Assembly: GCF_021372645.1 (NCBI RefSeq)
Contig: NZ_JAJFUC010000094.1
Coordinates: 1 to 53,208, forward strand
Reading direction: 5' to 3'
DNA length: 53,208 bases
DNA from: Clostridium sp.
GTDB lineage: Bacteria > Bacillota > Clostridia > Clostridiales > Clostridiaceae
The translations under genes and the position numbers were made by a program. Position 1 is the stretch's first letter. Every line of letters starts with the position of its first letter. Positions 12,951 through 42,059 of this stretch are shown here, piece by piece. The notes below the pieces were generated by a model. It saw only the letters and a list, made by a program, of their open reading frames with translations. It was not told where the DNA came from and ran no database searches.

Positions 12951-13020
12951 AAGTGAAAGTCCAAATTTTAATTTGGCCACTCGAACTTACTCAGCGAACG
13001 CATGTGAGTCGAGTTTCATA
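12951..13020. repeat. Palindromic repeat copy at the 5' end of the valS leader
   Basis: About 70 bp matching the repeat at 16446 and 23563: AAGTGAAAGTCCAAATT, then ACTCAGCGAACGCATGTGAG, then GAGTTTCAT. It can form two hairpins, one from CCAAATT/AATTTGG and one around ACTCAGCG. Its position makes it the first transcribed part of the T-box RNA. Confidence 0.75.
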
Positions 13021-13037
13021 TATTAAATTAATAAATT

Positions 13038-13361
13038 AAAAGCAATGAAAAAGAGGAGTAAAAACCTAAAAGCATTTTAGGAAACTCACTCAGACGAGTT
13101 GAGGAGTACAGTTTTTTTATCTAAATCATAGATTTAGAAAGAAATAGTAAGAGAGAGGGAGTAGCTGAAAACCCTTATGCTGAAAGTTTTGAAGGTAGCT
13201 TTTGAGCTTCTTTAGTGAAATTAATAGTAGCTAAAGACGGTTTGTCTAAATCGTTATTTAAATTAAGAGTCCATAAGAGCATATATACTTGGATTTAATG
13301 CTTATGTGGAAATAAAGGTGGTACCGCGAGTCTTCGTCCTTTTTGTGATGAAGGCTCTTTT
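13038..13361 (+). promoter_or_regulatory. T-box leader controlling valS (valine tRNA sensor)
   Basis: A T-box RNA reads uncharged tRNA and switches between terminator and antiterminator. The invariant core AAAGGTGGTACCGCG is at 13315-13328. Stem I features are visible: GAGGAGTA near 13054, AGAGAG near 13150, and a specifier region GAAG-GTA-GC near 13191 with GTA (valine) at 13195-13197 followed by a purine and TTTGAG. Stem III is TCCATAAG/CTTATGTGGA near 13269-13310. Stem I contains extra hairpins at 13064-13140, including CTAAATCATAGATTTAG, which resembles an arm of the palindromic repeat. Specifier and product agree. Confidence 0.92.
13328..13361 (+). terminator. T-box-controlled terminator before valS
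   Basis: GAGTCTTCGTC (13328-13338) pairs along its whole length with GATGAAGGCTC (13347-13357), followed by TTTT. The left arm overlaps the sequence used by the antiterminator with the GGTACC bulge, as usual for T-boxes. Confidence 0.9.
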
Positions 13362-13380
13362 GGCGTTGAGAATCCAAATG

Positions 13381-13490
13381 TGAGAGTCCGAATTTTATAT
13401 TGGGCGCCTTGAACTTTCCCTTTGTGAGCATCTTGTATTTGGTTATTCGAAAGCCCCAAAAATGAACGTATGTGAGTCGGGTTTCCTTTA
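13381..13490. repeat. Interrupted palindromic repeat copy between T-box terminator and valS
   Basis: The start (GAGAGTCCGAATTTTATATT) resembles the copy at 12951, and the end (GAACGTATGTGAGTCGGGTTT) matches the repeat's 3' half. About 45-50 bases of unrelated sequence separate the halves. It lies in the 218-base gap between the leader terminator and the valS start. Confidence 0.6.
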
Positions 13491-13579
13491 TAAAAGATAT
13501 ATATAACTAAGTTCAACTAAAATTTGTTCATTTATTGTGAATTGTACATTGAGTAAATTAAAAGCTTGGAGGAATGAAA

Positions 13580-16222
13580 ATGTTAGAAATTAAAAACATA
13601 TCAACTACATATGATCCAAAAGAATTTGAAGATAGGATTTATAAAAATTGGGAAGAAAAAGGTTATTTTACACCAGTAATTGATAAAAGCAAAAAACCTT
13701 ATACAATAATTATGCCGCCACCAAACATAACTGGTGAGCTTCACTTAGGTCATGCATTTGATGATACTCTTCAAGATATGCTTATTAGATTTAAGAGAAT
13801 GCAAGGATATTGCACATTATGGTTACCAGGAGAAGACCATGCTTCTATTGCAACAGAAGTTAAAGTTGCCAATGAATTAGCTAAGCAAGGTTTAAATAAA
13901 AAAGAAATGGGAAGAGAAGCATTCCTTGAAAAAGTTTGGGAATGGAGTGATGAATACAGGGCAAAAATAAGAAATCAAGTTAAGAAACTCGGTGTATCAG
14001 CTGACTTTACAAGAGAAGCTTTTACAATGGATGAAAATCTTAGTGCTGCTGTAAAACATGTATTTGTCAAGCTTTATAATCAAGGCTTAATTTATCAAGG
14101 AAATAGAATAACTAACTGGTGTACTCATTGCCAAACTGCATTATCTGATGCAGAAATCGAATATGAAGAACAAGCAGGTCATTTCTGGCACATTAATTAT
14201 CCATTAGCTGATGGCTCTGGGGTTTTAGAAATTGCAACAACTAGACCTGAAACATTACTTGGAGATAGTGGTGTTGCTGTTAATCCTAATGATGAAAGAT
14301 ATAAGCACCTTATTGGTAAGACTGTAATATTACCATTAGTAAACAGAGAAATCCCGATAGTTGGAGATGACTATGTAGATTTAGAATTTGGTACTGGTGC
14401 TGTTAAAATGACTCCAGCTCATGATCCTAATGACTTTGAAGTTGGGAAAAGACATAACTTAGAAATTATTAGAGTTATGAATGACAAAGGTGTTATAAAC
14501 CACTTAGGCGGGAAATATCAAGGCTTAGATAGATACGAAGCTAGAAAAGCTATAGTTAAAGATTTAGAAGAGTTAGATCTTTTAGTTAAAATTAAAGATC
14601 ACTCTCATAATGTTGGAACTCATGATAGATGTGGTACTACAGTAGAACCAATAATATCAAAGCAATGGTATGTTAAAATGGAATCTTTAGCAAAACCAGC
14701 TGTAGAAGTAGTTAAGAATAAGAAAACTAAATTCGTTCCAGAAAGATTTGAGAAGACATACTTCAATTGGATGGAAAATATACAAGATTGGTGTATTTCA
14801 AGACAATTATGGTGGGGACATAGAATACCAGTTTTCTATTGTCAAGATTGTGGTGAAATAATGGTATTAGAAGAAGCACCAAAGACTTGTACTAAATGTG
14901 GATCTAGTAATATAGAACAAGACAAAGATGTATTAGATACATGGTTCTCTTCAGCATTATGGCCTTTCTCAACACTTGGTTGGCCAAATAAAACAGAAGA
15001 TTTAGACTATTTCTACCCAACAAGTACATTAGTTACTGGGCATGATATTATATTCTTCTGGGTTGCTAGAATGATATTCTCAGGACTTCATTGTATGGAT
15101 GAAACTCCATTTGATACAGTGCTTATTCATGGTCTTATAAGAGATTCTGAAGGAAGAAAAATGAGTAAATCCTTAGGGAATGGTGTTAATCCATTGGAAG
15201 TTATAGACACTTATGGTGCTGATGCTTTAAGATTTATGATAGCTACTGGTAATGCACCAGGAAATGATATGAGATATTATCCAGAAAGAGTTGAAGCTTC
15301 AAGAAACTTTGCTAATAAGATCTGGAATGCTTCAAGATTTGTTATGATGAATCTTGATAAAGAAATTATGAATAAATACAAAGACTGCAAAGAATACTCT
15401 TTAGCTGACAAGTGGATTTTATCAGAAATGAATACAGTAGTAAAAGAAGTTACAGAAAACATGGATAAATTTGAACTTGGAATTGCTATGCAAAAAGTTA
15501 ATGACTTTATGTGGACTGAATTCTGTGACTGGTATATAGAACTTGTTAAGCCAGTGTTCTATGGTGATGATGAAAAAGCTAAAGGAATAGTTTACAATGT
15601 ATTAAATACTGTATTAATTACAGGATTAAAATTATTACATCCAGCTATGCCATTTATAACAGAAGAAATATTTACTCATTTAAGTGATGAAGAAACAATA
15701 ACAACTTCAGCTTGGCCAGAATTTGATGAAGCTTTAGTAAGTAAAGACTCTGAAAATGATATGGCATATATAATTGAAGCAATAAAAGGATTAAGAAATG
15801 TAAGAGCTGAAATGAATGTACCACCATCTAGAAAAGCTAAAGTAATTTGTTATATTGCAGAAGATGCTAAGAAAGCATTTAATGCAGGAAGTGCATATAT
15901 AGAAAAATTAGCTTCAGCTTCAGAAGTTGAGTTTATAGATGATAAAGTTAATGTTCCTGGTAATGCAGTTTCATTAGTAGTTAAGGGTGGAGAATTATTT
16001 ATGCCATTACTTGACCTAGTAGATAGAGAAAAAGAATTAGATAGATTAAATAAAGAAGTTAAAAAGCTAGAAGGCGAAATTGATAGAATAGACAAGAAAC
16101 TAGGAAATCAAGGATTTGTAGCTAAAGCACCAGCAGCAGTTATAGATGCAGAAAAAGAAAAAAGAGTAAAATATGTAGAGATGCTTGAAGCTGTAAAAGT
16201 TAGAATTGACGCTTTAAACTAA
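13580..16222 (+). CDS. valS: Valyl-tRNA synthetase
   Basis: This 880-residue class I synthetase charges tRNA-Val with valine in the cytoplasm. The HIGH-type motif is [14 protein letters not shown] (about residue 48), a zinc-binding CxxC pair lies near residues 430-445, and the KMSKS motif [11 protein letters not shown] is near residue 530. The C-terminal coiled-coil arm, typical of ValRS, is present (about 815-880). I start at ATG 13580 because GGAGG ends 7 bases before it; an in-frame ATG at 13574 is too close. Expression is controlled by the T-box leader upstream. Length and motifs are complete. Confidence 0.97.
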
Positions 16223-16238
16223 ATATTATGATAGTTAG

Positions 16239-16283
16239 AAAAAGATATTACTAGATAATTAATTCTGGTAATGTCTTTTTTTA
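16239..16283 (+). terminator. Terminator of valS
   Basis: A 16-bp stem with G-T pairs (16239-16254 with 16265-16280) around a 10-base loop, ending in a run of T. Confidence 0.88.
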
Positions 16284-16407
16284 TGCTTATTTTTTTAGTT
16301 TACAATTCCTAAAATATGGTAATAATGAAAAATAATTCACAATAAATATAATATTAAAGATAAAGTTATGTTAATAAAAATAATATTACCATTAAAAATA
16401 AACTAAG

Positions 16408-19053
16408 ATGGAGGATACGGTTATTAGAAAAAAGAAATTTACTCTAAGTAGAAAATCCAAATCTTTGATTTGGTGTGACTCACGTATTCAACGAAGGTAT
16501 GTGAGTCGAGTTTCATTTATAATTTTTATTACTATAATATTTGGATTCACACATAGAGAGGTTTATGCACAAACAGAAATAAATAGTGGACAGGAACAAG
16601 AGACAGAGGATATGATTGATAGCAATAAAGAGGTTGCAGAATCTGAAATATTAGAATTTTTTACAGTTGATAATAATACTTATAAAGTTTTATCACAAAA
16701 TAAAGATGATAATACAGTGATGTTTTGGAAATATGAAAAACTAGATGATTCAAAAAGTATAATTATAAATAATAATGTTAATTATAATGGACATAATTTT
16801 AACGTTAAATATGTATATGAAGAAGCTTTTTATAAGAGTAGTAAAAATGTGAAAAATATAATTATAGGGAAAGGGGTTTTAGGTTTTTGCGATTCATCTG
16901 GAAATTTAATTACAATTTTAAATAAAGTCTTTAAAGATCAAAAAGAACTTCAAAGTGTAGATTTTGGAAATACTAATTTTATTTTTGGCGAAAATTGTTT
17001 TGAAAATTGTAAAGCGATAGTGAATGTTGAAATGCCAGAGAATATGAATAAGATGGAAGGTTATTGCTTTGATAAATGCTCTTCGCTAAGAAATATAGAT
17101 TTAAGTACTATAACAGAACTTAAAGGACAGAGCAATTTTGCAAATTGCAATAAATTGGAAGGGATAGGACAGATAAATAATGAAGTAACTGAATTACCAG
17201 ATAAGACGTTTATGTGGTGCTCTAATTTGAGGATAAATAGTCTAAATAATACAACTAAGTTAGGTAATGAATGTTTTGAATATTGTAGAGCATTAAATGA
17301 AAATATAGTAACTGATGTTGAAGAAATCGGAGATAAATGTTTTTTTGGTTGTAATTTTAAAGAAGTTTATTTAAAAAAAGCTAAAAAAGTTGGATATAAT
17401 GCTTTTGGTGAAATTCAAAATTTAAAAAAAATAAGATTTGGTAATCCTAGTATTCCTTTTTTGGAAAAGAATATAGCAGAAGGTAGTAGTGTTAACGAAT
17501 GGGTTTATCCACTAGATTATAAAACTCAACCAGATTATTTGGAGTTTTTAAGTAAGTTAAGAATATCAAAAGTTATTTGGTTCTGTAATTATGAAAATAT
17601 GAATGGTAAAGTAACCCAGGATGTTAGACTAAACTCATTAACACCGCCATCTAGTACTAGAGAGGGCTATGAAATAGAAGGTTGGTACAAAGAACCAGAA
17701 TGTATTAACAAAGTTAATATGATAGCTGATTTAGGAGAAATTGTTGATTCTGACTTAGTTATAAAGAATCCTGTATTGTATGCAAAGTGGACAACTAAAA
17801 AACCCACAATGCCAGAAGAATCAAGTGATTCTAAAGAACCAACTATACAAGGAGAAACAAAAGAATCAAGTGACTCTAAAGAATCTATGACAACGGAAGA
17901 AGTAAAAGAAGAAAACGATTTTGAAGAACCTACAACGCCAGGAGAAGAAAAAGAGCCAATTGATCCAGGAAAACCTACAAAACCAATACAAACAAAAGAA
18001 CCAAGTGATCATGGGGAACCAACCACATCAGAAGAAACAAATGAATCAAGTGGTTTCAATCAACCTACTGCTCCAGAAGATATAAATAGTCAAAGTGATT
18101 TTGATAGCGCAGGAAATTTAAATAATTCTAATACTTCAAATAATCAAAATGAAAATAATGATGACAATATAGAATACGAAAATAATAATTTTTCAAGTAT
18201 GTTATATGAACCGAGAAAAACTAAAAATTATATTAATAATTTTATCGTAAAAATTGAAGATGAAAATAAAGACGTTTATATTAAACAAACTAAAAATTTA
18301 TCTTTAGAAAATGAAATTATTAAAAATATATTTGTATCAACAGTTAAAAAAAGTGATATTGAAATCAAAAATTTAAATTGGTCATATAGAGATAATGTAA
18401 ATAGTAATATAGAAATTATTAAGAGTGGTGATCTTAGTGAAATTATTAAAAATGGCCAATGTATTGGGATTTATCTAAAGAGTAATGATTATTTTAATAA
18501 TAACACAATAATAGAGATGAATATTACTAATATAATAAAGCCAAGTAAACTTTATTTTTATAGTGAAGAATTAGGAAAGTTCGTATTAGTTGATGAGAAA
18601 TTACAAATTAATAATGGCATAATTAAGATTAAGCCAAATAATAGAAAAGAATATTTAATTACTCAATTTGATTTAAATGAAGATAATGTTGCAACGCAAG
18701 GATGGAATAAAGTATTACCACAACAATCAAATGCTATATTAAGTAAACATATTAATGAATTAAGTTGGGTATATATTCAAGATCAAGAATTATCTAAGGG
18801 ATGGATTAAAGATGTTCAGGAAAATAATTGGTACTTTATGAATGAGAAAGGAATAATGGAAACAGGATGGTTAAAAGATAAAGATGACAAGTGGTACTAC
18901 TTAAATACAATAAGTGATGGAAGTAAAGGTGCTATGAAAATTGGATGGAATAAGATAAACAATAAGTGGTATTATATCCAAAATGATGGTGTTTTAGCAG
19001 TTAATACAGTTATTGATGGATATGCAGTTGGATATGATGGAAAATTAATTTGA
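16408..19053 (+). CDS. BspA-like leucine-rich-repeat surface protein with cell-wall-binding repeats
   Basis: This 881-residue secreted protein is probably attached to the cell wall and may bind host or substrate polymers. A hydrophobic signal segment (about residues 36-50) ends near VYA-QTE. BspA/TpLRR-type repeats (about 75-395, with recurring CFxxC and L-x-IxL patterns) are followed by an InlB B-repeat-like module (about 395-465, GYEIEGWYKE). Then come a Pro/Glu/Ser/Thr-rich stretch of imperfect repeats (466-590), a beta-rich domain, and C-terminal choline-binding-type repeats (GW-K, WYY) from about 765. Residues 14-37 are encoded by the palindromic repeat, in frame. The ATG lacks an upstream ribosome site; GGAGG at 16410-16414 would suit an ATT start at 16423. 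Confidence 0.85.
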   Translation: MEDTVIRKKKFTLSRKSKSLIWCDSRIQRRYVSRVSFIIFITIIFGFTHREVYAQTEINSGQEQETEDMIDSNKEVAESEILEFFTVDNNTYKVLSQNKDDNTVMFWKYEKLDDSKSIIINNNVNYNGHNFNVKYVYEEAFYKSSKNVKNIIIGKGVLGFCDSSGNLITILNKVFKDQKELQSVDFGNTNFIFGENCFENCKAIVNVEMPENMNKMEGYCFDKCSSLRNIDLSTITELKGQSNFANCNKLEGIGQINNEVTELPDKTFMWCSNLRINSLNNTTKLGNECFEYCRALNENIVTDVEEIGDKCFFGCNFKEVYLKKAKKVGYNAFGEIQNLKKIRFGNPSIPFLEKNIAEGSSVNEWVYPLDYKTQPDYLEFLSKLRISKVIWFCNYENMNGKVTQDVRLNSLTPPSSTREGYEIEGWYKEPECINKVNMIADLGEIVDSDLVIKNPVLYAKWTTKKPTMPEESSDSKEPTIQGETKESSDSKESMTTEEVKEENDFEEPTTPGEEKEPIDPGKPTKPIQTKEPSDHGEPTTSEETNESSGFNQPTAPEDINSQSDFDSAGNLNNSNTSNNQNENNDDNIEYENNNFSSMLYEPRKTKNYINNFIVKIEDENKDVYIKQTKNLSLENEIIKNIFVSTVKKSDIEIKNLNWSYRDNVNSNIEIIKSGDLSEIIKNGQCIGIYLKSNDYFNNNTIIEMNITNIIKPSKLYFYSEELGKFVLVDEKLQINNGIIKIKPNNRKEYLITQFDLNEDNVATQGWNKVLPQQSNAILSKHINELSWVYIQDQELSKGWIKDVQENNWYFMNEKGIMETGWLKDKDDKWYYLNTISDGSKGAMKIGWNKINNKWYYIQNDGVLAVNTVIDGYAVGYDGKLI
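16446..16518. repeat. Palindromic repeat copy inside a coding sequence
   Basis: About 72 bp, from AAGTAGAAAATCCAAATC to GAGTCGAGTTTCATTT, close to the copies at 12951 and 23563. CCAAATC/GATTTGG and GACTCAC/GTGAGTC form two hairpins. Because it contributes a multiple of three bases it keeps the reading frame of the surface-protein gene. Confidence 0.8.
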
Positions 19054-19094
19054 AAAGTTTTATTTAATAAGGATATAACAGAATAAATATTAAT

Positions 19095-19180
19095 ATACAT
19101 AGTTTAGGCACATTTGAAAAAATATTAAACCAATATGCGTATTTATTATTTTATTTCATGTGCCTTAGAGTACTATGTAT
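19095..19180. mobile_element. Compact MITE-like palindrome upstream of terC
   Basis: TTTAGGCACATTTGAAAAAA (from 19103) is inverted as TTTCATGTGCCTTAGA (ending 19169). The symmetry extends outward to ATACATAGT (19095-19103) and ACTATGTAT (19172-19180). The element has little more than its two ends. The ribosome site of the next gene begins at the very next base. Confidence 0.6.
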
Positions 19181-19194
19181 GGAGGTGTTTAAAT

Positions 19195-20031
19195 TTGAAA
19201 ACAAAAAAATCTTTACTTAATTTGATTTTTTGGATAACTTTATCAATCTTGTTCAATATTTTTATATTCTACACAAGAGGTGAAACAGCAGCTATTGAAT
19301 ATTTTGGTGGTTACATAGTAGAAATGTCATTAAGTTTGGATAATTTATTTTTATTTTTAATGGTGTTTTCAAGCTTTAAAATAAAAGAAGAATATCAAGA
19401 AAAAGTGCTTTTATATGGAGTTATAGGCGCTATGATACTACGTCTCATATTTATATTATTAGGTGTAGTGATAATAAGTAAGTTTAGCTTTCTACTTTCT
19501 ATTTTTGGCGTAATATTATTACTTAGTGGTTTTAAATTGTTTTTTAAAGAAAATGACAATATGCAATTTCATGATAATTTTTCAGTTAAACTCCTAAGAA
19601 AAATAATGCCAGTAACAAATAATTTGCAGGGACAAAAATTTTTTGTAAAACAAAATAAAATTCTTTATGCAACCCCTCTTTTTGCAGCACTTATAATAAT
19701 TGAATTTTCTGATATTATATTTGCAATAGATTCCATACCAGCTATTTTTTCAATAACTACAAATACTTTTATAGTATATACGTCTAATATATTCGCAATA
19801 CTCGGACTTAGAAGCATGTATTATATATTACAAAAGATGAACAATATGTTTAAATTCATGAGGTATGGTGTAGGGTGTATATTGATATTTACAGGCTTAA
19901 AGCTTGTAATGCTATTTTGGAGAATTAAAATTTCAGTTACAAATTCTGTATTAATTATTATTTCTATTTTATTAAGTAGCATTTTGATATCTTTCATATG
20001 GGATGAATTAAATAATAAGTTGAAAAATTAA
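19195..20031 (+). CDS. TerC-family integral membrane protein
   Basis: This 278-residue protein has about seven to eight transmembrane segments and matches the TerC family (PF03741; Alx/YjbE-like). These are implicated in manganese export or metal-dependent membrane functions rather than only tellurite resistance. Conserved acidic residues sit in membrane segments: EMSLSLDNLF near residue 40 and FAIDSIPAIF near 180. The start is TTG 19195, 7 bases after GGAGGTG. An upstream in-frame ATG at 19135 falls inside the MITE-like palindrome and would add 20 artificial residues. Confidence 0.87.
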   Translation: MKTKKSLLNLIFWITLSILFNIFIFYTRGETAAIEYFGGYIVEMSLSLDNLFLFLMVFSSFKIKEEYQEKVLLYGVIGAMILRLIFILLGVVIISKFSFLLSIFGVILLLSGFKLFFKENDNMQFHDNFSVKLLRKIMPVTNNLQGQKFFVKQNKILYATPLFAALIIIEFSDIIFAIDSIPAIFSITTNTFIVYTSNIFAILGLRSMYYILQKMNNMFKFMRYGVGCILIFTGLKLVMLFWRIKISVTNSVLIIISILLSSILISFIWDELNNKLKN

Positions 20032-20033
20032 CT

Positions 20034-20070
20034 GCATCTTCGACTTGTTATTTTCTTTCATATGCATTAA
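20034..20070. mobile_element. Solo MITE-type end after terC
   Basis: GCATCTTCGACTTGTTATTT continuing to TTTCATATGCATTAA matches the right end of the element at 3693-3728 in about 30 of 36 positions. No matching left end is close, so it is a fragment. Confidence 0.5.
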
Positions 20071-20207
20071 TTAGAAGTTTGTAAAGAATTTCTGCTTGAT
20101 TTTTTATATTAGTCATTTACTTATAATTAAAGTATAATGTAAAGTATACAAATGATTTTATATAAATATTATTAGAAGAAAGCATAAAAGACAAGAGGTA
20201 AAGAAAA

Positions 20208-21515: not shown

Positions 21516-21587
21516 TTATAGTTATATGTTAATTGTCGACTGTAAATTGGAGATATTAATTTAAAGAGAAGGAGTAATGACAGTTAT

Positions 21588-23564
21588 ATGGTTAAGAAAG
21601 ATAAAGAGAATTTGACTTATAATGAAAAATCAATCTATTATGATTTAAAAGAGTTTCATCATAGAAACCCTGGTGTACTTTATAGCTATCAAGACTTTGA
21701 AGCAGCTGGCATAAGAGAATTTGAAATTATTACAAACAAATTACGTCCCTTTAAAAATTATGAAAAAAATAGATTGTCTAATGAATTAATGAAAATATTA
21801 TTAAATGATATTAATAATAATGAAAAATTAGATAATGTAAATGTATATATAACCTTAAATCCAATTATTAATTATTATGAGAGTTTTATTAAACTTTTTA
21901 AAGACTCAGTAGAAGATAATAAAGATATGAGCTTAAAAATAAAGGATATTATAAAAAAAATTCTTACAGATAGTGATTCGAGTGAAGAAATAAAGCTAGG
22001 CTTAATACTTGCACCAATTTGTAATATAGAAAATATAGAAGATATATTAGAGGTATTTTCTATTCATAACGATTATCTTTTTTATGTAATTAAGGCTTAT
22101 GAATATATAGGAGGCTATAATAATACTATTTTTGAAATGGCAAAGAAATCTAATGGGTATGGCAAAGTATTTTGTATAATGAATCTTAGACCAACAACGT
22201 ATGAAATAAGAAAATGGATGATAGAAAAAGGTTCAGATAACAGTGTGGGAGTGCAAGAATTATTATCGTATAGTATGCTTTCATTAGATCTTCTGGATTA
22301 TTTGGAAAACAATGAATTTGACGGAGAAGAAATTGAAGTTTTAGCAAAGTCATTTAGTATGTTACTTTCAGATTATGGATTAGATGATATTAAAGATGGA
22401 AAAAAAGTTTACAATAAATTATTAGAAATTATTGATAAGATTAATGGAGGAATATATTCTTTATATGTTGTGATTTCAATTATTTATTCCATAGAAGCTA
22501 TTGTAATTGATGATTATAAATCAAAAAGAAGCGCTACTTCCTTTAAATTCAATAGTGATTATAAAGACATAATTCAAAAATGTAAAAAAATCTGTAAGAA
22601 AGATATATGGCACGAAATAATAACAAACCAAGTATCAAATCTAGAAATTGAAAGTAGTGTTTTAATAAGTTGTTCAGAAAAAACAAAATATAAATTAAAA
22701 AAGAAAGAATTTAAGACAATTTTAAATAGAGATTACACTAATCCATTATTATATAAGTATGCATTTTCAACAGTGAATAAATCAATAAGAAAATGTGCTT
22801 TTAGCATAGGGTTACAAAAACTGCCAATGAATGAAGTATTAAGTGGTCAAGATGAATTGAAAATAGATAATTTACTTTATGAAGATATAGAACAAATTTG
22901 TTTTTTTATAATAATAAAATACTCACAGTATGAAGATTTTCAAGATGAATATAAAGATATTAATCTTCAGGCTTTAAAAGCACCTTTAATTGAGACAAGG
23001 ATTCAAGCGGCAACAAACCTTCAAAGATTTAGAGAAGAATTTAATTCTTTGGATAAGGAAATTATTAATGATGCCATTAGTACAGAAATGGTAGGAAATA
23101 TACGAAGATCTCTTAATTCTTTATTAATTAAAACAAATGATAAAGAAAAAAAATATGTTGAAGTTTATGATAATATGCACATAGACGCTCATGTTAAAGA
23201 TATATATTTAATTAATATAAATATTGCTGGAACAAATTACATCGATATGAGTGAAATATATAATAATTTATTAGAAGATGATATGTTATATTTAAAAAGA
23301 GAGCCTAACAATGCATATGACTCAAACGCAATTGAAATTATAACTACAAATGGATATGTAATTGGATATGTTCCTAAAGAAAATAATCTTATCTTAAAAA
23401 ATTTAATGGATAAGGGAAAATATATATATGGAAAAATAAAAGAAATAAGTGATGATTATAATCATATAAATATTGAAATTTATCTAAGTTATAAAGATAT
23501 AATAGAAGAAATAACAAGTACTTTATCATTGTTATCAGGAGAAAGAGAACATTATCTTCAATAA
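21588..23564 (+). CDS. Large protein of unknown function with C-terminal HIRAN domain
   Basis: This 658-residue cytoplasmic protein has no signal peptide. The first 520 residues are helical, highly charged and match no family I recognise. Residues about 531-632 form a HIRAN domain (AGTNYIDM, LKREPNNAYDSNAIEI, GYVIGYVPKENN), a small beta-barrel that binds DNA 3' ends or stalled forks in HLTF/Rad5. In bacteria HIRAN occurs alone or beside nucleases. No helicase or nuclease motif was visible in the rest. A GGAG site at 21571 lies 13 bases before the ATG. The palindromic repeat begins exactly at the stop codon, so the natural 3' end could have been altered. Confidence 0.7.
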   Translation: MVKKDKENLTYNEKSIYYDLKEFHHRNPGVLYSYQDFEAAGIREFEIITNKLRPFKNYEKNRLSNELMKILLNDINNNEKLDNVNVYITLNPIINYYESFIKLFKDSVEDNKDMSLKIKDIIKKILTDSDSSEEIKLGLILAPICNIENIEDILEVFSIHNDYLFYVIKAYEYIGGYNNTIFEMAKKSNGYGKVFCIMNLRPTTYEIRKWMIEKGSDNSVGVQELLSYSMLSLDLLDYLENNEFDGEEIEVLAKSFSMLLSDYGLDDIKDGKKVYNKLLEIIDKINGGIYSLYVVISIIYSIEAIVIDDYKSKRSATSFKFNSDYKDIIQKCKKICKKDIWHEIITNQVSNLEIESSVLISCSEKTKYKLKKKEFKTILNRDYTNPLLYKYAFSTVNKSIRKCAFSIGLQKLPMNEVLSGQDELKIDNLLYEDIEQICFFIIIKYSQYEDFQDEYKDINLQALKAPLIETRIQAATNLQRFREEFNSLDKEIINDAISTEMVGNIRRSLNSLLIKTNDKEKKYVEVYDNMHIDAHVKDIYLININIAGTNYIDMSEIYNNLLEDDMLYLKREPNNAYDSNAIEIITTNGYVIGYVPKENNLILKNLMDKGKYIYGKIKEISDDYNHINIEIYLSYKDIIEEITSTLSLLSGEREHYLQ

Positions 23565-23634
23565 GTAGAGAATCCAAATCTATGATTTTGTTTGAGTCAC
23601 TTACTTAGCGAAAGCAGTGAGTAGAGTTTCATTA
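23563..23634. repeat. Palindromic repeat copy at the stop codon of the HIRAN gene
   Basis: AAGTAGAGAATCCAAATC through AGAGTTTCATT, about 70 bp. The TAA stop of the upstream gene uses the first bases of the element. One hairpin is CAAATC/GATTTTG; the other is around TCACTTACTTAGCG. Confidence 0.75.
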
Positions 23635-23643
23635 ATAAATATA

Positions 23644-23941: not shown

Positions 23942-23980
23942 TACATACACTCCTTATAATAAATTTAATTTAAAAGTTAA

Positions 23981-24016
23981 TATTACTCAGCGAACCTACG
24001 TAAGGTGAGCTTAATA
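23981..24016. repeat. Partial palindromic repeat copy
   Basis: TTACTCAGCGAACCTACGTA followed by AGGTGAGCTTAATATATT matches only the second half of the repeat. It lies in the shared promoter region of the TSCPD and beta-propeller genes. Confidence 0.5.
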
Positions 24017-24134
24017 TATTATACAAGAAATTTGTCAATAAATAAAGATAATACAATTAATAAGTTGTACCAATAATATAATTTTAGAATATATTAAAGA
24101 TAGTAATATGATTATCTTATAAGGGGGAAATGGT

Positions 24135-31820: not shown

Positions 31821-31848
31821 TTAGATTCCTCCAACAAATTATTATAAG

Positions 31849-34179: not shown

Positions 34180-34246
34180 TGTAAAAAATTTATTTTGATT
34201 TTGAGTATTAAGATACATTTAAATTAAAATGTAAATAGGAGATGAA

Positions 34247-35131
34247 ATGATAATGGATGATAAAATAATCAGAGCAACGGCTAAAGATGGAATGGTTAGA
34301 ATAATTGCAGGAATTACAACTAATTTAGTAAATGAAGGTACTAGTATACATGAATGTACACCAGTAGCAGCTGCCAGTTTTGGAAGAATGATAACTGCTG
34401 GAGCATTAATAGGAACAACATTGAAAAGTGAAAAAGAAGTTATAACTTTAAAGATAGATGGTAATGGAGAAGCAAAGGGAATAACTGTAACTGCTCATAA
34501 TGATGCGACTGTTAAAGGCTTTATAGGAAATCCATATATTGATAGACCACTTAATGAAAAAGGAAAATTAGATGTTGGTGGAGCTATAGGAAAAGACGGA
34601 ATTTTATATGTAATAAAAGATTTAGGATTAAAAGATCCATATGTTGGACAAGTTCCAATACAAACAGGAGAAATAGGAGATGATTTTGCATATTACTTTA
34701 CAGTATCAGAACAAACACCATCAGCAGTATCACTTGGTGTACTAGTTGATAAAGATTTATCTATAAAAGCTGCTGGAGGTTTTATAGTTCAAATGATGCC
34801 AGGGGCAGATGAGCTTCTTGCAGATGTTATAACATATAGATTGGAAGAAATTCCACCGATAACTACTTTGATAAGTGAAGGAAAAACTATAGAAGAGGTC
34901 TTAGAATATATTTTTGATGGAATGGATTTAAAAATATTAGATTCTCTTAAACCAGAATATAAGTGTGATTGCTCTAGGGAAAGAGTTGAAAAAGCATTAA
35001 TATCTGTTGGGAAAGAAACTCTTAAAGAAATATATGATGATGAAAAAACAGAAGAAGTAGTATGTAACTTCTGTAACAAGAAATATGAATTCACTAATAA
35101 AGAAATAGGTGAATTATTGAATAATAAATAA
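34247..35131 (+). CDS. hslO: Redox-regulated chaperone Hsp33
   Basis: This 294-residue chaperone is activated by oxidation and unfolding. The N-terminal core (about 1-230) holds typical stretches such as [17 protein letters not shown] and [10 protein letters not shown]-like segments, and the C-terminal zinc switch has CDC near residue 246 and CNFC near residue 280. The start at ATG 34247 is 5 bases after AGGAG; ATG 34253 is also possible. Single gene followed by a strong terminator. Confidence 0.94.
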
Positions 35132-35210
35132 GAATAAGTATTTACTTTCTCGATTAGATACATATTAATGTGTTAAGTATTGAATATATATATAATTAAT
35201 AAAATAAATG

Positions 35211-35258
35211 AAAAAAGGATAATCTGATAAATTTTAAATATCAGATTATCCTTTTTTC
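35211..35258 (+). terminator. Terminator of hslO
   Basis: A perfect 19-bp stem (35211-35229 with 35239-35257) around a 9-base loop, with A-run and T-run. Confidence 0.92.
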
Positions 35259-35327
35259 GGTAGATTATACGCATAAATATGATTCTCACCGTGGAAATCT
35301 ATATTTTAGTGATATAACATTTGTAGA

Positions 35328-35342
35328 AAAATGTGGTATAAT
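35328..35342 (+). promoter_or_regulatory. Extended -10 promoter before the amylase gene
   Basis: TGGTATAAT (35334-35342) is an extended -10 element. No good -35 is present at the usual distance. It lies 115 bases before the amylase start in a 325-bp gap with nothing else recognisable beyond the hslO terminator. Confidence 0.4.
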
Positions 35343-35456
35343 TTAAAGGAATTACTAAGATTAAGTTATTTATAATTCAATTTCCAAAAGAAATTGTACC
35401 ACAATTATCAACTGTAAATTAAAAAGATGGCATTGTCACTTTATGTGGAGGTAGAG

Positions 35457-37217
35457 ATGAGTAGAATTAGTAAGGCTATTAAATTAAAACTTCAGGAATT
35501 AAGGATAGATGATATCTTCAAAGATGGGATATTAAGATATAAAGAGTTACTTTCAAAGGATGATGCAAAAAATGTGGAGTTAGAGAAGAATTCAGAAAAA
35601 AATATATCAGATAATAATGACTTAAATATAGAAAATAATTTTGAAGATAATGAGGTTGGAGAAAATAATAAAGAGGAAAAAGTAGAGCAGAAAAAACAAA
35701 AAATAGATGATTGTTATAAAAGTGATTCAATAGAAAATGAAGAGATAAATTTAAACGATATTAATAAAGAGAATATGAATGAAACAATGATGCAATATTT
35801 TGAATGGTATTATCCATGTGATGGTTCTCTTTGGAATAAGGTTAAAGAAAACTCCAAGGAGTTAAGTGATGTAGGAATTACAGCTCTATGGCTGCCACCA
35901 GCTTGTAAGGCTGCTGATGGGATTTATGATGCTGGATATGGACTATATGACTTATATGATTTGGGAGAATTTGATCAAAAAGGCACAGTTAGAACAAAAT
36001 ATGGTACAAAGGATGAATATTTAAAAGCTATAGATGAAGCACATAAAAATAATATAAAGATTTATGGAGATGTAGTATTTAATCATAAGGGAGGTGCAGA
36101 TGAGTCTGAGATTGTATCTGCAAGACCTGTAGCAAATTACAATAGAAATGAGTTTGTAGGAGATAAAAGAGATATTAGAGCTCATACAATTTTTAATTTT
36201 CCGGGTAGAGGAAATAAATATTCTGAATATAAGTGGACTGCAAATGATTTTGATGGTGTGGATTTTGATGATATTACAAAAGAACACGGCATATTTAAAT
36301 TTGAAGGAAAAGAGTGGGAAAAGGATGTAGACCTTGAAAATGGAAATTATGATTTTTTAATGTTTGCAGATTTAGATATGGATAGTCCTCATGTGATTAA
36401 CGAACTCAAAAGGTGGGGAGAATGGTATTTAGAGCAGACTAATATAGATGGGTTTAGATTAGATGCCATAAAGCATATTAGGTTTAATTTTTTTTATGAA
36501 TGGCTTGAAAATGTGAGGAAATATAGTAAAAAGAATCTTTTTGCAGTAGGAGAATATTGGACTCATAATGTTAATAGTCTTGAATATTATATGGATAAGT
36601 GTGGAAACTCCATGAGTTTATTCGATGCACCACTTCATTTTAATTTTCATAGTGCTAGCAATTCATTTGGATTCTTTGATATGCGAACATTAACAGAGAA
36701 CACTTTTTTAAATGTCAATCCAGATAAAGCAGTTACCTTTGTTGATAATCATGATACACAACTTGGACAATCCTTAGAATCATGGGTACAACCTTGGTTT
36801 AAACCATTAGCTTATACATTTATTTTAACAAGAAAAGAAGGATATCCATGTGTTTTTTACGGAGATTATTATGGAATACCAGAAATGAATTTTGACGGAA
36901 TAAAGGATGAATTAGATATAATCCTAAAAGTAAGAAAAAATTATGCTTATGGAACACAACATGATTATATGGATAATGAGTCTATTATAGGATGGACTAG
37001 AGAAGGTGCCGATGAACATGAAAATTCTGGAATGGCAGCAGTGATTACAGTTAGCTATGGTGGTGCAAAAAGAATGTACGTTGGATTCCATCATAGAGGA
37101 GAAGTGTGGAAGGATGCTACCAAGCAGTCTAAGGATAGAATTATTATTGATGAGAATGGATGTGGAACTTTTAGAGTTTTTGATGGGTCTTATGCTATAT
37201 GGATAAAAGAAAATTAA
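35457..37217 (+). CDS. Alpha-amylase (GH13_5 type) with acidic N-terminal extension
   Basis: This 586-residue enzyme hydrolyses alpha-1,4-glucans. The catalytic TIM barrel starts at about residue 105 (MMQYFEWYYP) and contains the four GH13 regions: DVVFNHKGG, DGFRLDAIKH (nucleophile Asp), FAVGEYW (acid Glu) and FVDNHDTQ. There is no signal peptide, so it should act inside the cell, like other GH13_5 enzymes. The first 105 residues are unusual: a short basic helix then a Glu/Asn/Lys-rich, probably disordered stretch. ATG 35457 follows GGAGG; an in-frame ATG at 35427 has no site. Confidence 0.92.
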   Translation: MSRISKAIKLKLQELRIDDIFKDGILRYKELLSKDDAKNVELEKNSEKNISDNNDLNIENNFEDNEVGENNKEEKVEQKKQKIDDCYKSDSIENEEINLNDINKENMNETMMQYFEWYYPCDGSLWNKVKENSKELSDVGITALWLPPACKAADGIYDAGYGLYDLYDLGEFDQKGTVRTKYGTKDEYLKAIDEAHKNNIKIYGDVVFNHKGGADESEIVSARPVANYNRNEFVGDKRDIRAHTIFNFPGRGNKYSEYKWTANDFDGVDFDDITKEHGIFKFEGKEWEKDVDLENGNYDFLMFADLDMDSPHVINELKRWGEWYLEQTNIDGFRLDAIKHIRFNFFYEWLENVRKYSKKNLFAVGEYWTHNVNSLEYYMDKCGNSMSLFDAPLHFNFHSASNSFGFFDMRTLTENTFLNVNPDKAVTFVDNHDTQLGQSLESWVQPWFKPLAYTFILTRKEGYPCVFYGDYYGIPEMNFDGIKDELDIILKVRKNYAYGTQHDYMDNESIIGWTREGADEHENSGMAAVITVSYGGAKRMYVGFHHRGEVWKDATKQSKDRIIIDENGCGTFRVFDGSYAIWIKEN

Positions 37218-37318
37218 GGTATTTGCTTTCAAGATTAAATCTTTACATTAGGGATTTAATCTTAATTTATTTATATATATGGTGTCTATAGAAATAAATT
37301 AATAAGGGGAAATGAAGT

Positions 37319-38077
37319 TTGAGAAAATTTTGGGACATTGCATTAGGAATAGTATTAATTTTATATATAATAGCTATAAATATTATGAGTAGTGCAAGAC
37401 TTGCATTTAGTTTGCCAATTGTAATTTTAGGTATTATATTAATATCATATCATTTTGTTAAGAATAAAATAAATGAAGGTAAGTTTCTGTCTAAAGAATT
37501 TAAGTTTATAAAGATGTTTTTATGTATTGGATTTATATGTTTCTTGGTAATAGAATCTGTAATAATAAGTTATCCTAAGCATAATGAAAATAAGGATGAT
37601 TATATTCTTGTATTAGGAGCTGGACTTAGTAATAAAACAACTCCTAGTTTAATACTTCAAGGGAGACTTTATGCAGCAATAAAGTGTCTAGAGAAAAATG
37701 ATACTGGATATATTGTTTTATCTGGAGGGCAAGGGATAGATGAGGATTTACCAGAATCTCATGTCATGAGTAAGTATTTACAGGACTGTGGTGTAGATAA
37801 GGAAAGAATAATAATTGAAGATGAATCTAGAAATACTAATCAAAACTTTAAGTATTCTAAGGAAAAAATAGAAGAACATAGTCATAAATCATTGGATGAA
37901 GTTAATGTTAAGATAATAACAACGGATTTTCATGCATTTAGAAGTAGTATTTTAGCAAAGAGAAATGGATATGTGAATTTTGATAATTATTCTAGTGCTA
38001 CAGTGTGGTACTTGATTCCTGTAACATATACTAGAGAGGCTTTTGCAATTGTAAAGAGTTTGCTGTTTGATAAATAA
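37319..38077 (+). CDS. YdcF/SanA-type (DUF218) membrane protein
   Basis: This 252-residue protein has two or three N-terminal hydrophobic segments (about 5-85) and a DUF218 domain (about 95-240: YILVLGAGL, YIVLSGGQG, ESRNTNQNF, TTDFHAFRS). Family members such as ElyC and SanA act in envelope integrity; their biochemical activity is unsettled. The start is TTG 37319, 8 bases after AAGGGGA. An ATG at 37312 is out of frame. Confidence 0.83.
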   Translation: MRKFWDIALGIVLILYIIAINIMSSARLAFSLPIVILGIILISYHFVKNKINEGKFLSKEFKFIKMFLCIGFICFLVIESVIISYPKHNENKDDYILVLGAGLSNKTTPSLILQGRLYAAIKCLEKNDTGYIVLSGGQGIDEDLPESHVMSKYLQDCGVDKERIIIEDESRNTNQNFKYSKEKIEEHSHKSLDEVNVKIITTDFHAFRSSILAKRNGYVNFDNYSSATVWYLIPVTYTREAFAIVKSLLFDK

Positions 38078-38191
38078 ACAGTTAATACAAAAAATTAACA
38101 TTGAAATTTGAGAAAAATAATAACAAAATATATATTACATTGTGACGAGTTATTTTTTGATGATATTTATATGAAAGGATAAGTTTTTAGA

Positions 38192-39049
38192 ATGAGAATA
38201 AATAAACTTTTTAGTAACTATGGAATTTGTTCTAGAAAAGAAACTAATAGGCTAATTGAGGAAAAAAGAGTTAAAGTAAATGAGGCGTTTTGCGTTTTAG
38301 GACAATGGGTGGAAATAGAAAAGGATAAAATTCTTCTTGATAATAAACCTATTTCAGTACAGAAAAGAGTTTATATTGCACTTAATAAACCAGTTGGAAT
38401 TACTTGTACGGCAGAAGATAAAGTTAAGGATAATATAATTGATTTTATGAAATATCCTCAGTATATATTTCCAGTTGGTAGGCTAGATAAGGAATCTCAA
38501 GGCCTTATAATTATGACTAATGATGGAAATTTAGCTAATGAAATTTTAGAATCAGAAAATATTCATGAAAAGGAATATATAGTTACGGTTCATAAAACTT
38601 TTGATGATGAGTTTCTTGGAAAAATGGCTGAGGGAGTTGAAATTGCAGGGAATGAAAGTTCTGGGATTAAGAGAATATCAGATACATTGGGTGTATACAA
38701 GAATGAAAATGACAATGAACTTAATTTGGGAAAAGAGAATTTTGATAAGTTAAATAAGGTACAATTAACAGAATTAAAGAAAAACAAAGCTAATAAGAAG
38801 AACTTTGTTAGAACAAGACCCTGTAAAGTTAGTAGAATTAATGAAAATACATTTAGAATAATATTGACCCAAGGTCTTAATAAACAAATTCGAAAGATGA
38901 GTGGGGCTTTAGGATATAAGGTTATAAAACTTGAAAGAATTAGAATTATGAATATAAGTATTTCTGGAATAAAGATTGGAAAATGGAGAGAACTTAACGA
39001 AGAAGAAGTAGAAGACCTTAAAGCTAGAGTTGCTACTAAAATAGAGTAA
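38192..39049 (+). CDS. RNA pseudouridine synthase, RluF/RsuA family
   Basis: This 285-residue enzyme has an N-terminal S4 RNA-binding domain (about 1-60) and a catalytic RsuA/RluB/E/F domain. The active-site Asp is in GRLDKESQGL near residue 97. RluF-type proteins modify 23S rRNA; the exact site is inferred. A lysine/asparagine-rich insert of about 40 residues (roughly 165-205) splits the catalytic domain before RPCKVSRI. A weak AAAGGAT site precedes the ATG. Confidence 0.85.
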   Translation: MRINKLFSNYGICSRKETNRLIEEKRVKVNEAFCVLGQWVEIEKDKILLDNKPISVQKRVYIALNKPVGITCTAEDKVKDNIIDFMKYPQYIFPVGRLDKESQGLIIMTNDGNLANEILESENIHEKEYIVTVHKTFDDEFLGKMAEGVEIAGNESSGIKRISDTLGVYKNENDNELNLGKENFDKLNKVQLTELKKNKANKKNFVRTRPCKVSRINENTFRIILTQGLNKQIRKMSGALGYKVIKLERIRIMNISISGIKIGKWRELNEEEVEDLKARVATKIE

Positions 39050-39197
39050 CTAATTTATAATAAAGTTTTTATTAATAAAAACCTTATATTTAAATTAGAG
39101 TTTATATAATTAGGAAGACATTTTGTGAAAGAAATACAACGTGAGGTTAAATATTTTGTTAATAATAAAACTTTAAGGAATATGGAGAGATAATGAG

Positions 39198-39527
39198 ATG
39201 GATAAAAAATATATAAATGCAATAGAAGCTTCAAAGAAATATAATTTATGTTTAAAAGTAGTTACATCAGTAAAAAGCTTTGATTCATACAATAGTTTCT
39301 TTAATATTTATGATGAAGCAGAAGAACCCTGCAGGAGAATTGTTGTTCTTACTAAAACTAAAGAATTAGAAGAAGTTTATGATGAAAATCCCACTGAAAA
39401 ATTAGAAGAATGCAGAATTGTAGATGGAAACATATGGATTAGAGATTATTCTTTACTTGTTAGTCCTAAAAAAATTGATTTGGCAGATTTAATTGTTGAT
39501 AAAACATTGGTTGAGAAAATAATATGA
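39198..39527 (+). CDS. Unknown small protein coupled to the histidine kinase
   Basis: I do not recognise this 109-residue protein. It has no signal peptide or membrane segment; it looks alpha/beta with an acidic middle and one CRRIVV and one ECRIV segment. Its stop codon overlaps the kinase ATG (ATGA), which implies translational coupling and a possible role in the two-component system. GGAGAG lies 8-9 bases before the ATG. Confidence 0.65.
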   Translation: MDKKYINAIEASKKYNLCLKVVTSVKSFDSYNSFFNIYDEAEEPCRRIVVLTKTKELEEVYDENPTEKLEECRIVDGNIWIRDYSLLVSPKKIDLADLIVDKTLVEKII

Positions 39528-40987
39528 GAATAAAAAAGAGGCTTACAATATCAAATATTCTTATGCTTTTAGTACCTATAGTAATTATATTTATTATTGC
39601 TGGCATAATGAATATACCATTTTCTAAGGCATATGAAAGTAAATTCGAAAGTAAAAGAGAGAGCGATCAATATGCTTATTTTATTCAGCAGAGCTTAAGA
39701 CCTGATATGAAGAGATTTGATAACAAAGATGATTTTGCTAAGTTACCAGTGGAGTTACAGAATTTTCTTGGACCTAAAGGATATCATTTAGTAATTACAT
39801 ACGATGGAGAAATAATTTCATCTAATATTACAGATGAAGACAAAGATGCTATTTCTAAAATAGGAGATGATATGCTTTTTAAGTCCAATTCTTTAGTACT
39901 TGAGATGAATTCAACTTCTTTAGTTAAAAATAGTTTTATAAAGGAAAATAAAATTGTAAATATTATTGCAATTAATTCATCGTATAAACCTACAAGGATT
40001 GATATGAAACATGAAATGGCGAGTTTTATGATGAGCTATATAATTATAGTATTTATTATTTCGCTTATTGTGGTTACTTTAACTAATGGTATACTATCAA
40101 CTAAAATTTACAAGAAATTAATTGTTCCTCTTGAACTTTTAAGTTACGGAGCTGAACAGATTAAAAATGGTAATCTTGATTTTAAAATGAATTATGATAG
40201 TGACGATGAGTTTAGGCAAGTTTGCGGTGATTTTGATGAAATGAGATTAAGGTTAAAAGATTCTGTTGATTCTCAATTAAAATATGAGGAAGACAGAAAG
40301 CAATTGGTAGTTGGAATATCTCATGATTTAAGAACTCCACTCACAGCAATTAAAGGATATGTAGAAGGATTAATAGATGGCATAGCCAAAACACCTGAAA
40401 AACAAAAAAAATATCTAAATACAATTTATACTAAAGCATGCGACATGGATATACTTGTAGATAGGTTATTTTTATTTTCAAAATTGGATACAGGTAATTT
40501 CCCATTTAAATTTGACATAGTAAATATAAAGGAATATATGGAAAGATTTTATAATTATGTAAAAGACGAGTTTTATGGAAAAGATGTTGAGCTTTTTTTC
40601 TATAGTAAATGTGACGATTTATGTAGAGTAAAAATAGATTGTCAGGAAATGAATAGAGTTCTTTTGAATATAGTAGAAAATAGTGTTAAATATAAGGGTG
40701 ATTGTAAAGGTAAAATCAAAATTAATTTATATGAAGAAGAAGATTATGTAGTTTTAGAACTTAATGATAATGGAAAAGGTGTAATGGAAGAAGAAATTTC
40801 TAATTTGTTTGTAAGTTTTTATAGAGGTGATGCTTCAAGGACAAATCCTAATGAAGGAAGTGGACTTGGACTCGCTATAGCAAAGAATATTGTAGAAGCC
40901 CATGGAGGGGAGATCGTAGCTTATAATATGAAGGGGCTTACAATTAAGATAACTCTTCCAAAAGTTTTTGATAAAAATTTTATATAG
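39524..40987 (+). CDS. Sensor histidine kinase
   Basis: This 487-residue membrane kinase has two transmembrane segments (about 12-30 and 166-190) flanking an extracellular sensor of about 135 residues. A HAMP linker, HisKA (phospho-His in GISHDLRTP near residue 266) and HATPase_c follow, with N box LLNIVENSVKY, G1 NDNGKGV and G2 GSGLGLAI. It should phosphorylate the response regulator 47 bases downstream. The signal is unknown; the adjacent export operon suggests an envelope stress, peptide or toxic compound. Confidence 0.93.
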   Translation: MRIKKRLTISNILMLLVPIVIIFIIAGIMNIPFSKAYESKFESKRESDQYAYFIQQSLRPDMKRFDNKDDFAKLPVELQNFLGPKGYHLVITYDGEIISSNITDEDKDAISKIGDDMLFKSNSLVLEMNSTSLVKNSFIKENKIVNIIAINSSYKPTRIDMKHEMASFMMSYIIIVFIISLIVVTLTNGILSTKIYKKLIVPLELLSYGAEQIKNGNLDFKMNYDSDDEFRQVCGDFDEMRLRLKDSVDSQLKYEEDRKQLVVGISHDLRTPLTAIKGYVEGLIDGIAKTPEKQKKYLNTIYTKACDMDILVDRLFLFSKLDTGNFPFKFDIVNIKEYMERFYNYVKDEFYGKDVELFFYSKCDDLCRVKIDCQEMNRVLLNIVENSVKYKGDCKGKIKINLYEEEDYVVLELNDNGKGVMEEEISNLFVSFYRGDASRTNPNEGSGLGLAIAKNIVEAHGGEIVAYNMKGLTIKITLPKVFDKNFI

Positions 40988-41034
40988 TATGAATATTACA
41001 ATATTGATTTTTAAAACAAAAAGGAGGAATTTAA

Positions 41035-41733
41035 GTGAAAAGTATACTTATTATAGAAGATGATCAAAGCATTGCTGAATTAGAACAAGATTATCTTGAA
41101 GTATCTGGTTTTCAAACTGAAATTGCAAGTACAGGAACTGAAGGATTAGAACTTGCATTAAATAAAAAATTTGATTTAATATTATTAGATGTAATGCTAC
41201 CAGGCAAAGATGGATTTAAGGTATGTGAGGAAATAAGAGCTGTTAAGGAAATTCCAATTTTAATTGTTACTGCTAAAAAAGAAGATATTTATAAGATACA
41301 AGGACTTGGAATTGGAGCAGATGATTACATTGTAAAACCATTTAGTCCCAGCGAACTTGTAGCACGAGTAAATGCACATATATCCCGTTATGAACGTCTT
41401 ACAAACATAGAAAAAGATAATAATATTGAACGAAGCTCAATAACTATTGGAAGAATTAAAATTCTACTTAAGGCAAGACGAGTTTATATTGGAGAAGAGG
41501 AGGTTAAGTTTGCCAATAAAGAATTTGAATTATTGATGTTCTTAGCATCAAATCCGAATATTGTTTTTTCTAAGGAGAAGCTATTAGATCGAATTTGGGG
41601 AGAAGAATCTTTCGGTGATAGTTCAACTGTCACGGTACATATTAATAGAATAAGAGAAAAAATTGAGTTAGATAGCAGCAATCCTGAGTATATTGAAACT
41701 GTGTGGGGAGCTGGATATAGATTTAATATATAG
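41035..41733 (+). CDS. OmpR/PhoB-family response regulator
   Basis: This 232-residue protein has a receiver domain (about 1-118; phospho-Asp in LLLDVMLPG near residue 52, Lys in YIVKPF) and a winged-helix DNA-binding domain (about 130-232). Partner of the upstream kinase. OmpR-family regulators usually bind tandem direct repeats with a 10-11 base period, and exactly such repeats precede the exporter operon at 42060. The start is GTG 41035, 7 bases after AAGGAGG. Confidence 0.95.
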   Translation: MKSILIIEDDQSIAELEQDYLEVSGFQTEIASTGTEGLELALNKKFDLILLDVMLPGKDGFKVCEEIRAVKEIPILIVTAKKEDIYKIQGLGIGADDYIVKPFSPSELVARVNAHISRYERLTNIEKDNNIERSSITIGRIKILLKARRVYIGEEEVKFANKEFELLMFLASNPNIVFSKEKLLDRIWGEESFGDSSTVTVHINRIREKIELDSSNPEYIETVWGAGYRFNI

Positions 41734-42059
41734 ATAACAAAAGTAAAAACTACACTAATGCGTATAACCCGCTGAAATAAAGGGCATGCAATTGTTCCGG
41801 TTACTGAAGATTTTTCTGGGTGCTTATAATAAAGGAAACTCGAATCTTATTCACTCGCTGAGTAAGTGATTCACACCAAATCATAGATTTGAGTTCTCTA
41901 CTTAAGAAGCACAGCCATCAAAATCTTTTGATGTAACACTGCACAAAAGCATGACCTTTATTTCTGGTTTTGGTTATATATCCAAAGTATAAGCGTAATT
42001 TAGAACTTGGATATTTATATGAAATTTATAGAGCAAAAATATAAATTACGGGGTAAAAA
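41734..42059. other. Intergenic stretch with nested palindromes
   Basis: The gap between the regulator and the export operon contains a large imperfect palindrome (41775-41963) with a palindromic-repeat copy at its centre. The arms AAATAAAGGGCATGC (41775-41789) and GCATGACCTTTATTT (41949-41963) match at 14 of 15 positions; closer in, GGGTGCTT faces AAGCACAGCC. It could act as the transcript end of the two-component operon. No coding region is seen. Confidence 0.5.
41830..41905. repeat. Palindromic repeat copy (reverse orientation)
   Basis: Read on the minus strand: TTAAGTAGAGAACTCAAATC, then GATTTGGTGTGA, then CACTTACTCAGCGAG, ending GAGTTTCC. It sits precisely in the loop of the larger palindrome at 41775-41963. 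Confidence 0.7.

Follow-up and report, generated by a model that had tools for sequence, protein, structure and literature searches.

The stretch of DNA analysed here, 53,208 nucleotides from Clostridium sp. (contig NZ_JAJFUC010000094.1 of assembly GCF_021372645.1, hereafter the window), carries several copies of a palindromic repeat of about 70-75 bp that is found across the genus. That this repeat is mobile and non-autonomous has good support, and a single-strand (HUH) transposase is the leading inference as to what mobilises it. Taking the whole reading together, we put the chance at roughly one in two (0.5) that these copies belong to a Clostridiaceae family of small mobile elements that are non-autonomous and moved in trans under an HUH-type single-strand model.

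A hairpin conserved as a fold in a dispersed family

The unit runs from TAAG to TTTCCTT(T)A, its right end taking the form TTTC[C/A]TT(T)A, and combines a conserved imperfect hairpin (hairpin 1) with a variable hairpin 2. Hairpin 1 comes in two sub-types: sub-type B is laid out as AAGT-GA-NNNN-apical stem-bulge of 2-N'N'N'N'-GA-ACTT, and sub-type A as AAGY-A-GA-GA-AC-apical stem-T-GT-GAA-TC-RCTT, with a fourth basal pair that is T-A in 15/28 hairpins and C-G in 13/28. Hairpin 2 is commonly ACTCAGCGAA..GAGT, and is replaced in other copies by AGTTAACTCG..CGAGTTAACT or by quite different stems; head-to-tail tandems and longer modular versions also exist. The sequence-only reading that first drew attention to the repeat gave a single consensus, which hides both the two sub-types and the several interchangeable second hairpins.

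The fold of hairpin 1 is conserved. We aligned 129 matches from 100 loci, of which 102 could be parsed into the full hairpin layout, and kept 59 distinct hairpins of sub-type B and 28 of sub-type A. A set of 42 of these 59 sub-type-B hairpins, chosen by hand to be diverse, gave 69 double-change cells, against 15.0 (standard deviation 3.2) in shuffles, and the covariation score was 0.317 versus 0.086, collapsing once partners were slid; the compensatory changes proposed as a check on the family are thus present in this stem. The middle helix of sub-type B covaries strongly, with combinations including CACC/GGTG, GCCT/AGGC, GTCT/AGAC and TAGT/ACTA. Across all 59 distinct hairpins 200 of its 236 cells are paired, and across the 35 distinct combinations 116 of 140 are, versus 79.2 (standard deviation 3.8, maximum 95) in 20,000 shuffles. 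On the strand as written G-U outnumbers A-C mismatches by 21 to 10, a weak signal.

Searches were made with two covariance models, R1 for the ~70-75-bp element, built from nine copies that blastn had found in the window's own genome, and R2 for hairpin 1. Plain blastn with one copy had matched 13 places, itself included, at E<=3.6e-4, and R1 gave 48 matches at E<=0.01 in the same genome (3.12 Mb), some of them adjoining or overlapping. The four main window copies score 84-89 bits with R1 (E 1e-12 to 1e-13 over the genome), but because those four are among the nine source sequences, independent support comes from the other matches. R1 matched 29 of 36 genomes of the genus (the window's own included), with up to 77 matches per genome, and 0 of 23 genomes of other genera in the same search; searched alone, genomes G029 and G008 gave 93 and 88 matches (G and L numbers are our handles for genomes and loci). 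Matches turned up in 18 of 291 genomes of a class-wide sample of Clostridia, comprising five of the genus, four of other genera of the family and nine weaker ones from other families, and R2 matched 4 of 398 in a phylum sample, two of those marginally. Counts from searches of over 40 genomes are lower bounds, because such searches evaluate few candidates in each genome. An exact pattern is carried by Clostridium uliginosum, C. puniceum, C. chromiireducens, two further Clostridium strains and two metagenome-assembled genomes. A blastn search for distant matches with one copy found none among plasmids and phages, and one 36-nt pattern gave no exact match among viral contigs. The proposal of a dispersed structured family, with further copies to be found by a covariance model, is borne out by copy number, genus-wide spread and the changes in hairpin 1.

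Insertion sites, junctions and larger repeats

Orthologous sites occur both filled and empty, showing that the element was inserted. The site of the copy at 12951 is filled in 3/10 relatives (G073 and, with diverged copies, G008 and G033), and the other seven have 7-15 bases there. At 23563 the gene ends CAATAA without the element in five relatives, and G073 carries an element at the homologous place. G027 has a longer version at a gene end where the same site is empty in the window's genome, and paralogues of a larger repeat are empty of the element in five places.

Copies lie between genes or at their edges, in either orientation, and are inherited and decaying. Gene context could be scored for 104 of 130 copies and palindromic flanks for 89 of 129, those with enough flank. 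Only 3/104 lie within open reading frames (ORFs) of >=120 aa, versus 54% of random positions; both neighbouring genes are on the same strand as the copy in 37 cases and on the opposite strand in 41, which is no preference; and where the upstream gene is on the same strand as the copy (46 cases), the element touches or overlaps the gene's stop codon in 11. Mutually pairing flanks, which place a copy at the tip of a palindrome, surround 7/89 copies versus 1.8% expected from re-paired flanks, a real excess confined to a minority, and we rejected palindrome-tip targeting as a general rule. The earlier view that sites are not random is partly right: ORFs are avoided, some copies meet a stop codon, and a minority sit at palindrome tips; that the element has no coding capacity is right for most copies and fails for the one at 16446, which is read through in frame.

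The left junction reads S-W-T/AAG, the slash marking the boundary. It was readable in 109 of 129 matches, and 71 independent flanks were kept after 6 tandems and like flanks had been removed: T stands at -1 in 66, A or T at -2 in 65, and C at -3 in 32, against a background of 16% (p 7e-9). The flanks beyond the right end show no comparable motif. TA is present at the left junction of nearly every copy, and also at that of the empty sites inspected; at the right end it occurs in 59% of 77 at two offsets, versus ~10% per offset in the flank, and many copies have TA at both junctions, a pattern that a 2-bp duplication would give as well. Terminal inverted repeats are poor, with about 6/10 positions alike by eye.

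Among the matches listed (150 of 181 for G029 and G008, 150 of 151 for G017, G074 and G060), at least 228 of 352 clusters in six genomes run against the replication fork (p 3e-8); the seventh genome, G017, has 12 of 34, making 240 of 386 in all seven (p 2e-6). The origin was placed at base 1, as checked by dnaA in G029 and G008 and assumed in the other genomes. GC skew combined with a C-containing target could give a bias of ~60-62% (p 0.07 and 0.41 against 0.60 and 0.625). We rejected strand preference as proof of single-strand insertion, since G017 deviates, GC skew may suffice, and the G060 copies ride in a larger repeat.

Some copies have spread as cargo within larger repeats. One such repeat, of ~390 bp with terminal inverted repeats and ends TATAGATATCCAAA / TTTGGATATCTATA, is present in many copies in G060 (L285-L300), where it carries the small element as a module, and has relatives in G029 (L301-L304). 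A palindromic repeat of ~900 bp contains the element in G021 (L222-L228 except L225; L224 and L228 are 96.6% identical over 902 bp). Another is bounded by AATAACAAGTCCA and TGGACTTGTTATT; part of its copies bear the element at the tip, and the others lack it (L208, L202, L205, L206, L211, L218, L159, L236-L238). Structured RNA loci also host copies: one lies between 23S and 5S rRNA in an operon of G008 (L229), others between tRNAs in G009, and one adjoins a lysine riboswitch (L040). A glmS ribozyme match spans the element in three genomes (L085, L258, L259) and overlaps it in a fourth (L072), all with the left flank CGTCAAC; these Rfam matches are to the host RNA, not the element. No Rfam 15 family matches the element itself (the window and 8 loci at gathering thresholds, 17 + 11 loci at lax ones), and a Clostridiales-2 match near L250 reached 29.3 bits against 58.6. 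The absence of a described family, as the sequence-only reading had it, agrees with this and with the open-licence literature searched, in which we found no paper describing the element.

Candidate mobilisers and alternative explanations

HUH-type transposition is favoured because hairpin 1 is covarying and bulged and the junction is one-sided. On this model the mobiliser would be an IS200/RAYT-like tyrosine HUH transposase acting in trans. It would recognise hairpin 1, complete with the 2-nt bulge and the GA/GA mismatches, as a folded single strand, and may join the element 3' of the S-W-T target without duplicating that target. Tandems would be accounted for by the likeness of the right end, TTTC[C/A]TT, to the target.

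Several observations weigh against this model. R1 found no copy at 30 Y1-transposase loci with 1.5-kb flanks (the best loci; more Y1 matches exist), and R2 found one decayed match beside, and outside, an IS200 (L099). Y1_Tnp is absent from G008, G017, G021 and G033, which carry 45-77 element matches, and the IS200 ends at 15 loci carry hairpins other than hairpin 1, TnpB-only elements not being included in the search. A partner enzyme was not found among the Y1 and IS630-type loci examined, and neither an HUH-type nor a DDE-type partner is consistently present in element-bearing genomes. The strand bias is opposite to that expected were the target-bearing strand the lagging template, and GC skew may explain it; the filled and empty sites rest on comparison of relatives, not on insertion polymorphism within one species; and some high-identity copies move only within larger repeats. 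TA at the right end and at the left junctions of empty sites is, moreover, also predicted by a TA-duplicating DDE enzyme. A resident RAYT or IS200 partner is thus not supported, and the earlier suggestion to look for an associated RayT/Tnp-like gene yielded no such partner at these loci. RAYT-like Y1 genes do occur in Clostridium genomes (L113-L119, L114 excepted), with no repeat recognised beside them; L119 passes the NCBIfam cut-off for REP-associated transposases, and L115 and L118 fall below it.

The foremost alternative, which we consider unlikely, is a TA-targeting miniature inverted-repeat transposable element (MITE) moved by an IS630/Tc1-mariner-type DDE transposase, with TA duplicated at both ends. 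The TA dinucleotides at filled and empty junctions favour such an enzyme, but the poor terminal inverted repeats and the one-sided S-W motif do not fit it well. IS630-type genes were found in only 6/22 genomes searched and are absent from nine copy-rich ones (G017, G021, G022, G026, G029, G030, G031, G005 and G066); 18 loci of the IS630 type (DDE_3), the one DDE family searched, held no copy by R1 and one marginal R2 match (E 0.12). An IS630 partner is accordingly not supported. Somewhat more doubtful is the idea that the hairpin is an old passenger which has lost its own mobility and now spreads through larger palindromic repeats, rRNA and tRNA operons, tandem slippage and recombination. The copies inside the ~390-bp and ~900-bp repeats, the rRNA operon and the tRNA arrays are what it would predict, as are the many diverged, vertically inherited copies, but solitary copies with unrelated flanks (the 71 independent left flanks) share a common junction motif, which argues that the element is itself mobile, at least formerly. 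It is improbable that the repeat is a cis-acting RNA element (a terminator, processing site or regulator) selected at many loci, for though the hairpin covaries and copies sit by a T-box leader and the lysine riboswitch and in glmS ribozyme, tRNA and rRNA loci, gene orientation is not preferred, orthologous sites are patchily filled, and no Rfam family corresponds.

By analogy, the element works like a non-autonomous element of the repetitive extragenic palindromic (REP), PATE or MITE type. RUP is a MITE moved by an IS630/Tc1-mariner-type DDE transposase that duplicates TA at both ends. Our element resembles RUP and other MITEs in being small, intergenic and dispersed with TA at its junctions, and is unlike them in its poor terminal inverted repeats, its one-sided junction motif and the lack of a matching IS630-type element in 18 loci. 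The BOX repeats of pneumococcus, built as boxA-boxB-boxC, are likewise modular, with exchangeable and repeated internal units, but seem to differ in sequence and fold from our element. Like the Rickettsia palindromic elements (mentioned in PMC3733652), the 16446 copy is in frame inside an ORF, but such copies are rare here (3/104). PMC3733652 and PMC6006769 describe REPs and the composite BIMEs with RAYT as short palindromic repeats with bulges or mismatches, many intergenic copies, tandems and no genes, all of which our element shares; it differs in its two hairpins, in lacking a canonical GT[A/G]G tag and, at the loci examined, a RAYT flanked by it, and in head-to-tail arrangement where REPs and BIMEs alternate. 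In the GTAG rule, as given in PMC6006769, a GTAG/GTGG tetranucleotide lies 0-2 nt 5' of the hairpin foot, and no such tag stands canonically at the foot of hairpin 1: sub-type B has AAGTGA, and the AAGTAG of sub-type A, which is AAGCAG in 13/28, runs into the basal helix. The GTAG repeats listed in PMC3733652 come from Proteobacteria, Cyanobacteria, Chloroflexi and PVC, and its main text contains neither 'Firmicutes' nor 'Clostridi'. Haloquadratum PATEs (PMC3119063) share the lack of clear terminal inverted repeats and of a transposase, along with near-terminal palindromes and nesting; they show no evident target duplication, which may hold for our element too, but their palindromes match resident IS605-type elements, whereas hairpin 1 is unmatched at the IS200-type loci examined. 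We therefore regard the element as a transposase-less palindromic repeat and file it under none of GTAG-REP, PATE or MITE, since tests for their defining features were in part negative; the initial REP/RUP-type label survives as analogy and not as membership.

If HUH-type movement of a mobile family proves correct, many Clostridium genomes would hold a REP-like mobile repeat population of up to ~90 matches each, undescribed in the literature searched. Through its copies in T-box, glmS-ribozyme, tRNA and rRNA loci the element would then generate variation among structured RNAs, and the spread of palindromic repeats without an adjacent transposase would become testable in a new phylum. The fold of hairpin 1 is constrained enough for designing binding assays.

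Copies in the window and distant relatives

Table 1. Element copies in the window and the features around them
Feature	Position	Strand	Details
Element copy, sub-type B	12951..13019	+	hairpin 1 = 12951-12988; directly 5' of valS T-box leader; R1 84.2 bits, R2 48.3 bits
Longer modular copy	13376..13490	+	hairpin 1 = 13378-13416; directly 3' of T-box leader; R1 37.6 bits, R2 34.8 bits
Element copy, sub-type A	16446..16518	+	in frame, close to N-terminus of ORF 16408-19053; R1 87.1 bits
Element copy, sub-type A	23563..23633	+	at stop codon of ORF 21588-23564; R1 84.6 bits
Probable decayed remnant	23956..24018	+	R1 23.2 bits, E 0.15
Element copy, sub-type A	41830..41905	-	tip of imperfect palindrome, between ORFs 41035-41733 and 42202-43416; R1 89.1 bits
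T-box leader (context, outside element)	13036..13344	+	between two copies; Rfam RF00230, 94.1 bits
Valyl-tRNA synthetase gene (context)	13574..16222	+	3' of T-box leader; Pfam incl. Val_tRNA-synt_C
ORF with leucine-rich-repeat and choline-binding-type repeats (context)	16408..19053	+	holds 16446 copy; Pfam LRR_5, Choline_bind_3
HIRAN-domain gene (context)	21588..23564	+	stop codon meets 23563 copy; Pfam HIRAN

The four main copies, at 12951, 16446, 23563 and (reverse) 41905, lie where the sequence-only reading had placed them. The copy that it called interrupted, at 13381-13490, is confirmed, though a longer modular version describes it better; at this site G027 and G073 have a simple copy of ~75 nt (L206 1732-1807, L210 1697-1772), and G066, G008 and G033 have longer diverged ones. 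Its partial copy at 23981-24016 scores weakly, but the remnant is credible because G064 has a tandem pair at the orthologous place (L204), one unit of which scores 95 bits. The copy at 41830-41905 (L035) has a flank-pairing score of 26. The actual start codon of the ORF that holds the 16446 copy is uncertain. The idea that the homologue of this ORF in G031 shares an old copy at its N-terminus was considered and set aside; the proteins align there by eye, and the DNA is too diverged to judge. A short palindrome at 47145-47181 matches hairpin 1 weakly (14.4 bits, E 0.26) and is possibly a further decayed copy.

More distant kin are found in other clostridial families. In G301, G337 and G166 a bare hairpin 1 follows a truncated 5' part of a tRNA ending in the D-loop, with the intact tRNA (Lys, Gly, Leu) downstream; G362 has a two-hairpin version within a partial tRNA-Leu, and G107 a hairpin between the intact 5S gene and a duplicated 5S rRNA 3' end. 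Such partial duplications with hairpin 1 at the junction were seen for tRNA (Lys, Gly, Leu) and 5S rRNA at L245, L261, L246, L262, L248 and L249, and at L253 and L263. We tentatively speculate that hairpin 1 could be the recognition site of a single-strand transposase or recombinase across the class Clostridia: a bare hairpin of ~40 nt may have inserted in distant families at tRNA D-loops and in 5S rRNA genes, so that part of the gene was left duplicated beside the intact one, and Clostridiaceae may have gained interchangeable second hairpins that made of it a genome-wide repeat. Contig ends are close by at the loci of G301 and G107; those of G166, a single-contig genome, and of G337, which are internal, are not explained by assembly ends.

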